In this document: positions 6,546 to 10,576 of the stretch, piece by piece | How positions within the stretch are numbered: position 1 is the stretch's first letter | How the letters are laid out: each line of letters opens with the position of its first letter | NCBI GenBank assembly: GCA_002780065.1 | Contig: PEWQ01000163.1 | Span: 931 to 13,069, forward strand | Direction: 5' to 3' | From: Candidatus Hydrogenedentes bacterium CG07_land_8_20_14_0_80_42_17 | GTDB lineage: Bacteria > UBA8481 | Length of the DNA: 12,139 nucleotides | The notes under the pieces: model-generated | Told to the model about the DNA's origin: nothing | What the model saw: the letters and a program-made list of their open reading frames with translations, nothing else | Databases searched by the model: none | Made by a program: the position numbers and the translations under genes

Positions 6546-6630
6546 GCAAGCACAGGCGAGGGCGTCCACTGACGCGAGGCGCCCATTGACGCGAGGGCGT
6601 CCATTGACGCGAGGCGTCCATTGCCGCGAG
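6546..6630. repeat. Tandem array of four 17/18-bp units
   Basis: The array starts with GCAAGCACAGGCGAG and continues with four units of alternating length: 6561-6578, 6579-6595, 6596-6613 and 6614-6630. The consensus is (G)GCGTCCATTGACGCGAG, and each unit ends in GCGAG. Each unit contains GCGTC and GACGC arms that can pair with each other. GCACAGGC at 6550-6557 is the exact inverse of GCCTGTGC at 6658-6665, so array plus adjoining repeat form a block of about 116 bp with 8-bp inverted ends. There are no constant repeats with unique spacers, so this is not CRISPR. Confidence 0.85.
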
Positions 6631-6670
6631 GCACCTGTGCCTCCAGAGCGAGGGGGAGCCTGTGCCTCCA
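6631..6670. repeat. 40-bp GC-rich repeat, copy 1
   Basis: This copy matches 6810-6849 at 38 of 40 bases. Inside the unit, CCTGTGCCTCC occurs twice, flanking AGAGCGAGGGGGAG. It abuts the tandem array directly. Confidence 0.85.
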
Positions 6671-6809
6671 AAAAGTCTACGATTGCAATGTTATTATATT
6701 TGAAATTGCAAATTGGAAAGTGCAAATTGAAAATTTTATTTTTCCAATTTTCATTTTTCAATCATTTCACATGTTCTTTGAGAGAGGAAAAATTGCATCT
6801 CATCTGAAG

Positions 6810-6849
6810 GCGCCTGTGCCTCCAGAGCGAGGGGGAGTCTGTGCCTCCA
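6810..6849. repeat. 40-bp GC-rich repeat, copy 2
   Basis: Direct copy of 6631-6670, 179 bp away, with two substitutions (third base A to G, and C to T in the second CCTGTGCC). It lies between the AT-rich block and the zapA stop. Here it stands without the 17/18-bp array. Confidence 0.85.
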
Positions 6850-6881
6850 CAAACTTAAGGATTACTCCAAAAAGATTACAA

Positions 6882-7169: not shown

Positions 7170-7396
7170 ATCTTTTTAAAGAGCTCTTCTATCTTCTGAG
7201 CAGCCACTTCCATATTTCTTCGCAGTCTTCTGTTTTCTTCTCTCAACTTTTCGATATTACTCGGTTCCTTTTCGAGCTTCGCCTCGAGCTCGGCAATCCG
7301 TATTTTATATTCCTTGCTGAGTTTCCGTTCTGTATAAAGCGCTTGAATTAATTCATCAACTTTTTTTTCGAGCCGATCTACAATCGAGTCTTTCAC
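7166..7396 (-). CDS. Small coiled-coil protein, ZapB-like
   Basis: This 76-residue protein is almost entirely a predicted coiled coil, with leucines and isoleucines in heptads (VDRLEKKVDELIQALYTER, RIAELEAKLEKE, IEKLREENRRLRRN) and only one proline (residue 45). Size, composition and coupling to zapA suggest a ZapB-like division factor that would join ZapA at the Z-ring. Coiled coils of this kind are hard to assign by sequence, so I give no symbol. It starts with GTG, overlapping the pheT stop as GTGA, with GGAG and GAGAAG nearby upstream, and ends in an ATGA overlap with zapA. Confidence 0.8.
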   Translation of the reverse strand: MKDSIVDRLEKKVDELIQALYTERKLSKEYKIRIAELEAKLEKEPSNIEKLREENRRLRRNMEVAAQKIEELFKKI

Positions 7397-9486
7397 CTGC
7401 TTCTCAATTCTCCGTTAACTCTTTTTTCAATTGAAGCTATGACAGCATCGACTGCGGAATTAATTTCAGAATCAGTCAGAGTCCGTTCACTCGAACGGAA
7501 TATCAGACGTATTCCTACTGATTTGCGATCTTCTTTTTTTGGTTGGAAGATATCAAAAAGTTTCATCTTTTCGAGATTTGCAGGTTCAGCCGAACTTACC
7601 GCCGAAAAGATTTCCGATATAGGCACAGCCGCTGAAACCCAAAACGCCAGGTCTCTCTCTGCAGACGGAAAACGCGGAAGAGTCGAATACTTTGGAATCG
7701 GCAATTTCCGACCGACAGCATTCCAAAGCGCTTCAAGATCTATCTCGAATCCATAAGCAAAAGTTTCAGATGCGCCGGAATCTTTTATCTTCTTCGATAC
7801 TGCTGAGCGATCGAGCATTCCAACTCGTCCAACAGTATGAGCTTCAAAACAAATATCTGCGGAATGAACAAAAAGCGCGTTATGGAATTTTGAAAAAGAA
7901 ATTTTCGAATCGGCCTCACCGGCTTTTATCTCTAAAGAAATTTTCAACAGCGACCCCAAAACTTTTATAGCGCCGATAGCATGATCAACTGCGGCTATTT
8001 CTTCCGGCCGACCGTCATATCTTTTTTCCTCAACGATTCCGGCAATGATTGCAGAAGCAGAATAATTCTCTGTAGGTTCGCCATCTTCCAGTCTGAATGT
8101 CTTATCCAATTCAAAGACTCGGCCCGAGTCCGGTATGCCGCGGAATTCTCTCAGCTCAACAACTCGAAGCAGAGAAGGCAAAAGAGTTCCTCTCATATAA
8201 TTCAATTCAGAGTTAATCGGATTAACAATTCTAACCTCTCCGAACCTTTCATTTTCAAAAGAAAAGGTCACGCATCTGTCAAAGCCAAGCGACTCAAGCA
8301 CTTCAGCAATCCGCCGTCTGAAATCAATAAATCTTTCGGCATTTTCTCCCCACTCAGAAGACTCAGTCGTTTTTCTTTTAGCAATGAAGTCGAGACTTCT
8401 GCCTGAAAAATGCGGCAGAGTTTCCGGCAAAGAATCGTATCCGGAAATCCTAGCAACCTCTTCAATTAAATCTATCTCTCGAGTTAAATCAGTCCGCCAC
8501 GAAGGAGCTTCTGCTCTGTCTCCGTCAAAATTCACTCCGAGCGAGCATAATATTTCGCGCGCGCGGGGAACAGCGCATCCGAGAAACCTCTTCACGCTTT
8601 CATCTCTAAAATTGATCTCTGTCGCTTTGTACGCCTCTTTTTCAGAGAGCTTTATTCCTTCGCTAATTTCTCCGCCGGAAATTTTCTTTATCAAATCTGC
8701 AAGTCTGCGGATTGCATAGAGCGGCGCCAGAGGATCCGCTCCGCGCTCAAATCGATAAGCAGAATCGGAAGAGATGCCGTGCCGCCGAGCTGTTCTGCGA
8801 ATCGAAGCCGGCTGAAACCATGCCGCCTCCAACAAAATATTCGTAGTATTCGAATTTACTCCGGTCTCTTCGCCGCCCATCACTCCTGCAAGCGCAACCG
8901 GTTTTTCAGAATTTGCAATCACCAGATCATCTTCGACCAGAGAATATTCGCGGCCGTCCAAAAGTTTTATTTTTTCTTTCGCCGCAGCCTGCCGAACAAT
9001 AATATGATTTCCTAAAAGATCGAGATCAAACGCATGCATAGGATGATTCAGTTCCATCAAAACATAATTTGTTGCATCGACAACATTCGAAATTGGACGC
9101 AATCCAACTCTCAACAGCCGTTTCTTCATCCATTCAGGCGATTCAGAAACTTTTACGCCGTGCATCACAAGCCCTGCATATCTCGAGCATCTTTCAGAAA
9201 TAATTTTTATATCGAATGACCCGCCTTCACCGATTTGATTCTCAAATTCTATTTTCTTAAGCTTCTTACCAGTAAGAACGGAAATTTCCCGAGCCAATCC
9301 AAAATGCGATAGAAGATCAGGACGATTGGCGGTTATTTCAAGATCGAGCATAAAATCATTATCTTCAAAAATTTCGGCTTCAGCGGTTTCAATTCCCAGC
9401 GAAGCAAAAAGTTTGGAAAGTTTTTCCGGAGATGAATATTCGGAGAGCTGAATAAAATCTGAAAGCCAAGAAAAAAGCATTATCAT
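7393..9486 (-). CDS. pheT: Phenylalanine-tRNA ligase beta subunit, short form without tRNA-binding OB domain
   Basis: PheT forms the alpha2-beta2 enzyme that charges tRNA-Phe and edits mischarged Tyr-tRNA. From the ATG at 9486 it has 697 residues, about 100 fewer than the usual 790-800. The N-terminus (MLFSWLSDFIQL, then LGIETAEAE) runs straight into LDLEITANRPDLLSHFGLAREI, so the EMAPII-like OB tRNA-binding domain normally lying between these blocks is absent. The rest is complete: the B3/B4 editing domain (about 95-275, with RPISNVVDATNYV, HPMHAFD, AGVMGG and SDSAYRFERG), B5 (about 288-355), the synthetase-like core, and the FDX-ACB domain (about 600-697, YSTLPRFPSAERDLAFWV). The frame is open upstream to 9561, but that part overlaps pheS and is not PheT-like. 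It starts 13 bases after pheS with only a weak Shine-Dalgarno site. Confidence 0.95.
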   Translation of the reverse strand: MIMLFSWLSDFIQLSEYSSPEKLSKLFASLGIETAEAEIFEDNDFMLDLEITANRPDLLSHFGLAREISVLTGKKLKKIEFENQIGEGGSFDIKIISERCSRYAGLVMHGVKVSESPEWMKKRLLRVGLRPISNVVDATNYVLMELNHPMHAFDLDLLGNHIIVRQAAAKEKIKLLDGREYSLVEDDLVIANSEKPVALAGVMGGEETGVNSNTTNILLEAAWFQPASIRRTARRHGISSDSAYRFERGADPLAPLYAIRRLADLIKKISGGEISEGIKLSEKEAYKATEINFRDESVKRFLGCAVPRAREILCSLGVNFDGDRAEAPSWRTDLTREIDLIEEVARISGYDSLPETLPHFSGRSLDFIAKRKTTESSEWGENAERFIDFRRRIAEVLESLGFDRCVTFSFENERFGEVRIVNPINSELNYMRGTLLPSLLRVVELREFRGIPDSGRVFELDKTFRLEDGEPTENYSASAIIAGIVEEKRYDGRPEEIAAVDHAIGAIKVLGSLLKISLEIKAGEADSKISFSKFHNALFVHSADICFEAHTVGRVGMLDRSAVSKKIKDSGASETFAYGFEIDLEALWNAVGRKLPIPKYSTLPRFPSAERDLAFWVSAAVPISEIFSAVSSAEPANLEKMKLFDIFQPKKEDRKSVGIRLIFRSSERTLTDSEINSAVDAVIASIEKRVNGELRSR

Positions 9487-9499
9487 GCTACAAGCATCT

Positions 9500-10576
9500 T
9501 CATGACGCAAGCATCTCAAGAAATCTGGAATCATTTTCAAAAAAGTTTCGCATATCGTCAATGTTATGCGTCAACATTGCGATCCGCTCAACGCCCATTC
9601 CAAACGCGAAGCCGGAAACTTTTTCGGGATCATAAACCCTGTCTCCCCTGCGGCGACAGGCTGATTCAAAGACATTGGGATCGACCATGCCAGCTCCAAG
9701 AATTTCCAGCCAACCTGTCCCCTTGCAGACTCTGCAGTCCGAACTTATCTTTCCCTTACCTGAGCATGAAACGCACGAGACATCAACTTCTGCAGAAGGC
9801 TCGGTAAACGGGAAGAACGACGGTCTAAACCTAATTTTAAAGTCCGGCCCGAAAAGTTCTTTTGCGAAGAAAGATAGAGTTCCTTTCAAATCCGACATTG
9901 TAATATTTTCATCAACAACAAGTCCTTCGACCTGATGAAAAATCGGCGAGTGAGTAGCATCGGGCGCATCTGAGCGATAAGTTCGACCAGGAACGATAAC
10001 CGCAAAAGGAGGATTCAAACAGCTCATAACACGAATCTGCAGAGGAGACGTGTGAGTTCTCAAGAGCAGTGGGTTATCCGCATGAATAGGTTCGATAAAA
10101 AAAGTGTCTTGAGCATCCCTCGCAGGATGGTCAGTAGGAAAATTCAAATCTGAAAAGTTATGCTGATCATCTTCAATATCCGGTCCCTCTGCAATTCCAT
10201 ATCCAAGTCTTAAAAAAATCTTCTGAATCTTTTCAATAGTTGAAATCAAAGGATGAGGCAGTCCGGGTTTTTGAATAAATCCCGGCCTAGTGTAGTCTAC
10301 TCCGCCGATAATTTTTTTAACTGACGCAGCTGACGACAAAAGTTCTTGGCGGCGCATAAGAAGCCTGGACTCAATTTTTTTTACTGCATCGTTGACTGCC
10401 GCGCCGAAACGAGGTTTTTCTTCAGCCGGCAAGACACCGAGCTTTTTCAATAATGCTTTCAGCTCACTCTTTTTTCCAAGATAAGAAATTCTTAAACTCT
10501 CGAGCTCTTCCGATGTTTTAGCAGAAGATATCTTCGCTAAAGCGGACTCTGAAAGCGATGAAAGCCTATCGAACAT
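9500..10576 (-). CDS. pheS: Phenylalanine-tRNA ligase alpha subunit
   Basis: PheS is the catalytic subunit that activates phenylalanine and transfers it to tRNA-Phe. The 358-residue protein has the N-terminal coiled coil that contacts tRNA (about 1-85). The class II core follows, with GPDIEDDQHNF and DHPARDAQDTF (131-159), LRTHTS (172-177), motif 2 around GRTYRSDAPDATHSPIFHQVEG (197-218) and motif 3 GFAFGMGVERIAML (322-335). Four cysteines (CVSC 268-271 and CRVC 281-284), followed by KGTGWLEILGAGMVDP, form a zinc-ribbon-like insert found in many bacterial PheS proteins. It lies 35 bases after rplT with no strong Shine-Dalgarno site, and pheT follows. With PheT lacking its OB domain, this coiled coil may carry more of the tRNA contact. 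Confidence 0.97.
   Translation of the reverse strand: MFDRLSSLSESALAKISSAKTSEELESLRISYLGKKSELKALLKKLGVLPAEEKPRFGAAVNDAVKKIESRLLMRRQELLSSAASVKKIIGGVDYTRPGFIQKPGLPHPLISTIEKIQKIFLRLGYGIAEGPDIEDDQHNFSDLNFPTDHPARDAQDTFFIEPIHADNPLLLRTHTSPLQIRVMSCLNPPFAVIVPGRTYRSDAPDATHSPIFHQVEGLVVDENITMSDLKGTLSFFAKELFGPDFKIRFRPSFFPFTEPSAEVDVSCVSCSGKGKISSDCRVCKGTGWLEILGAGMVDPNVFESACRRRGDRVYDPEKVSGFAFGMGVERIAMLTHNIDDMRNFFENDSRFLEMLAS

Follow-up and report, generated by a model that had tools for sequence, protein, structure and literature searches.

The pheT gene in the stretch of DNA analysed here (the window, 12,139 nucleotides) raised the question of whether a bacterial phenylalanyl-tRNA synthetase (PheRS) beta chain genuinely lacks the B2 tRNA-binding OB domain, and of how such a short form came about. 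The protein is probably an ordinary bacterial (alpha-beta)2 PheRS beta chain that has been stripped of the B2 domain at a natural boundary; an old loss among the ancestors of the lineage is the most likely cause. Although B2 is treated as standard in bacterial PheRS, many phyla lack it or have lost it, which shows it to be an optional accessory. The observation is useful for annotation, for interpreting models in which tRNA handling and editing depend on B2, and for the choice of natural enzymes in which the role of B2 can be tested. The picture of how PheRS works is unchanged by the short form.

Domain layout and the join in B1

The features of pheT and of the neighbouring pheS are given below, all on the minus strand.

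7393-9486, minus: pheT, PheRS beta chain, B2-less form, 697 aa (TIGR00472, Pfam)
9370..9486, minus: B1 first half, residues 1-39; aligns to residues 1-38 of solved bacterial PheTs; AlphaFold strand 33-39
9355..9369, minus: tight turn FEDND, region of residues 40-44, site of the B2 OB domain in other bacteria; five residues between predicted strands 33-39 and 45-50
9271..9354, minus: B1 second half, residues 45-72, with ITANRPD; aligns to residues ~153-183 of solved bacterial PheTs
8674..9189, minus: B3/B4 editing domain, residues 100-271 (PF03483, 228 bits)
8437..8616, minus: B5 domain, residues 291-350 (PF03484, 53 bits)
7798..8331, minus: catalytic-like module B6/B7, residues 386-563 (PF17759, 59 bits)
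7402..7677, minus: B8, FDX-ACB anticodon-binding domain, residues 604-695 (PF03147, 88 bits)
9500..10576, minus: pheS, alpha chain, 358 aa, with N-terminal coiled-coil domain (PF01409, PF02912; TIGR00468, 296 bits)

The ATG at 9486 is the first that fits the N-terminus of the family and was taken as the start of pheT; it lies 13 nt downstream of the pheS stop codon (9500-9502). The protein scored 493.5 bits against the bacterial family model TIGR00472 (pheT_bact, NCBIfam), above the cut-off of 402.65, and 65.3 bits against the archaeal-type TIGR00471, below the cut-off of 282.65. The Pfam domains B3_4, B5, tRNA_synthFbeta and FDX-ACB were all found in order, in accordance with the preliminary description, which had called them complete. 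The Pfam model PhetRS_B1 was borderline (25.2 bits against a cut-off of 26.8). The B2 domain inside B1 is a usual feature of pheT_bact, although not a required one, and it is absent here: PF01588 (tRNA_bind, the EMAPII-like OB fold of B2) was not found in the protein at E<=0.001, nor at the relaxed E<=1, and the domain scans placed no OB domain elsewhere in the chain.

The join lies at 9340-9400, where the preliminary description had put it, and is read in one frame. The segment SLGIETAEAEIFEDNDFMLDLEITANRPD, from about 9402 to 9316, spans it with no stop and no frameshift, as had been claimed, and leaves the two halves of B1 about 22 residues apart compared with the usual ~135. Alignment of a short-form profile with solved bacterial PheTs gave two pieces, profile positions 1-38 on residues 1-38 and positions 40-70 on residues ~153-183; the short forms therefore miss about 115 residues, which are the B2 domain. 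AlphaFold (25 sequences) gave B1 block-mean pLDDT values of 84-95, with the strands 33-39 and 45-50 closed by a five-residue tight hairpin. The relative placement of domains in this single-chain model is uncertain (pTM 0.56), which explains the low whole-model TM scores of 0.4-0.5 against the PDB, and use of the model was restricted to its secondary structure and the B1 hairpin. The absence of B2 lies at a natural domain boundary.

The same domain order of B1, B3/4, B5, B6/7 and B8 is found in canonical bacterial PheT of the same family (TIGR00472; T. thermophilus 1b70/1pys, E. coli 3pco), which differs by ~115 extra residues forming the B2 OB domain within B1. The archaeal and eukaryotic beta chains (2cxi, 3l4g, 7by6) share the contiguous B1 without B2; however, they are only distantly similar to the window protein and also lack B8 (PMC3275996), which the window protein has. 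The closest known type is the bacterial PheRS beta chain without B2 that is stated to be present in many CPR bacteria (PMC5370408; e.g. OGE14653.1). Like these, the window protein is bacterial, with a contiguous B1, no B2 and the rest of the chain present; unlike them, it comes from another phylum with a genome of normal size. A limited literature search found no report of B2 absence in Acidobacteriota, Nitrospirota or the phylum of the window, and database entries may well show it. The short form is neither rare nor new.

A CxxC ... CxxC cluster (CVSCSGKGKISSDCRVCKGTGWLEI) was seen at residues ~263-290 of PheS, with a weak score as a DnaJ- or anti-TRAP-like zinc motif, and is possibly a metal site.

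Editing residues and compensation

The preliminary description had expected the missing domain to affect the binding of tRNA. This consequence is probably overstated, as the protein retains both its editing site and the anticodon-binding B8 intact and B2 has been reported as dispensable. For the latter point, PMC5370408 and PMC12494982 cite Roy and Ibba (2006), whose title describes B2 of bacterial PheRS as dispensable and as contributing to editing. That work concerned, as here, a bacterial PheRS functioning without B2, presumably an engineered deletion and not a natural form. The editing-site residues listed for T. thermophilus PheRS in PMC3275996 are kept in the window protein at T139, N140, H151, G201 and E220 (T249, N250, H261, G315 and E334 in T. 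thermophilus). One position, E323, is replaced by glycine, and this position is also variable among the other short forms shown.

In canonical enzymes B2 sits in the tip of the B1 beta hairpin, and in the short form a short turn joins both strands, so that B1 can be expected to fold on its own. Catalysis would be carried out by PheS, whose coiled coil, together with B8 of the beta chain, would hold tRNA-Phe, while the B3/B4 site would remove mischarged Tyr. The expected cost of losing B2 would be a modestly weaker hold on the tRNA during editing. The enzyme should charge tRNA-Phe normally.

No compensation was visible, since PheS and the rest of PheT were equal in size in the short-form and long-form sets. 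Relocation of the OB domain was also considered and rejected. The only tRNA_bind match of the source genome, which is 87% complete, is the C-terminus of methionyl-tRNA synthetase (MetRS) with its KMSKS motif, and no Trbp111-like protein was found. In the other short-form genomes, tRNA_bind was located either in a frame of MetRS size or in a separate one of ~112 residues, and nothing pointed in general to a B2 set free from PheT. Three genomes with short PheT (G028, G027 and G047; loci L116, L117 and L118) have their sole tRNA_bind domain in a frame of its own, 112-113 residues long and separate from MetRS, which may encode a protein of the Trbp111/CsaA kind or one chain of a split MetRS.

Distribution of short and long forms

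Sixty genomes from different families were searched and 58 gave a PheT match; 13 of these, the window genome included, were short. Among named genomes the short form was present in Acidobacteriota (one Bryobacterales and one Acidobacteriaceae), in three Nitrospirota and in the unclassified bacterium AUK220; the best match of the window protein among named genomes was ~43-46%, with no close relative. A PheT match was obtained in 69 of the 77 genomes of the G006 phylum; all frames open to judgement had the size of the short form, and nearly all matched from the first residues. Both forms occur in a small-genome phylum, probably Patescibacteria (22 short and 28 long among 50 PheTs, which were picked so as to include both), where the short forms have a join of ~21 residues as in the window protein.

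The spacing of the two B1 blocks over 133 PheTs, a set partly selected for shortness and so no estimate of prevalence, was bimodal. It measured 19-40 residues in 40 proteins and 111-149 in 93, with none between, a distribution far from chance. A join of exactly 21 residues was found in 25 of the 40 short forms; that of G035 is somewhat longer, at 40 residues. As side observations, 10 of 192 sampled genomes gave no match to bacterial PheT, and the sole PheT match of one genome (L041 in G017) was weak and fell on a frame of 701 aa whose N-terminus looks archaeal.

Origin of the short form

The tree built on B1b to B8 placed short and long forms in an interleaved manner, with 22 changes compared with 34 for shuffled labels. 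At least four short/long changes were forced by well-supported branches, and in the tree of the small-genome phylum such branches likewise require the short-form group to change at least four times. Constraining the short forms to a single group made the tree 129 log units worse with 133 rows (p-AU 0.0165) and 108 log units worse with 120 rows (p-AU 0.042), the latter after removal of the pair with the 40-residue join and of long branches. The first AU test, with 73 rows, did not reject a single origin (p 0.218). The trees came from quick searches and have many poorly supported deep branches, the two larger tests gave moderate p-values, and the change counts carry no direction. The best reading of the scatter is repeated loss, to which gene transfer can add; it is the simplest, because several separate gains of one domain at an identical site would be less likely. 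The clean natural absence proposed in the preliminary description is supported, as it is seen in G001, a genome of the same order, and in many lineages. Of the two histories that it had offered, loss is preferred to an ancestral short form because the wider sampling rejects a single origin.

The second history, in which several bacterial phyla retained B2-free beta chains and the ancestor of the long forms gained B2 by a single insertion, perhaps with spread by gene transfer, is unlikely, although it draws on several observations. The oldest beta chains probably had no B2, since those of archaea and eukaryotes, with their contiguous B1, also lack the domain. The short-form profile aligned without gaps to Pyrococcus 2cxi_A (profile 3-65 on residues 6-69) and to Plasmodium 7by6_B, and PhetRS_B1 matched six members of a 25-protein set containing seven short forms. 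That unrelated lineages have a join of almost constant length, 21 residues, could be a sign of a shared ancient form, and the 73-row result fits with it. Against this stand the rejection of a single short/long split by the two larger samples and the well-supported branches that mix the two forms. It is likewise improbable that B2-free PheRS is an ancient retained form and that the OB domain entered an intact B1 hairpin after the phyla had split and was then spread by transfer. If that were true, the presence of B2 would mark transfer history and its absence would not be loss.

Loss of B2 within the ancestry of the window lineage was further compared with acquisition of a whole short pheT from another B2-less lineage. 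Synthetase genes are often transferred, an example being the archaeal PheRS of spirochaetes (PMC3191353), and the short forms are scattered across phyla. However, pheT adjoins pheS here, with putative rplT and infC (named from their translations) further upstream in the same direction, and the nearest PheT relative is that of G001 at 43% identity, all others being much more distant; transfer is an unlikely source. Deletion by assembly or sequencing, to which a fragmented draft genome (207 contigs, 87% completeness) is open, can be set aside as having next to no chance, because the PheT of G001, which belongs to another family of the order and is the sole other genome of the phylum examined, also lacks B2, and dozens of further independent genomes end B1 in frame at the same place.

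Elsewhere in the window, tandem and direct G+C-rich repeats (6556-6684 and 6808-6863) lie beside a zapA-like gene. The 24-nt core of these repeats had no further copy in the available genome sequence. The repeats are a 35-nt unit, GCGAGGGCGTCCACTGACGCGAGG..., present two to three times, and a 56-nt unit, AGGCACCTGTGCCTCCAGAGCGAGGGGGAG..., whose two copies are 88% identical.
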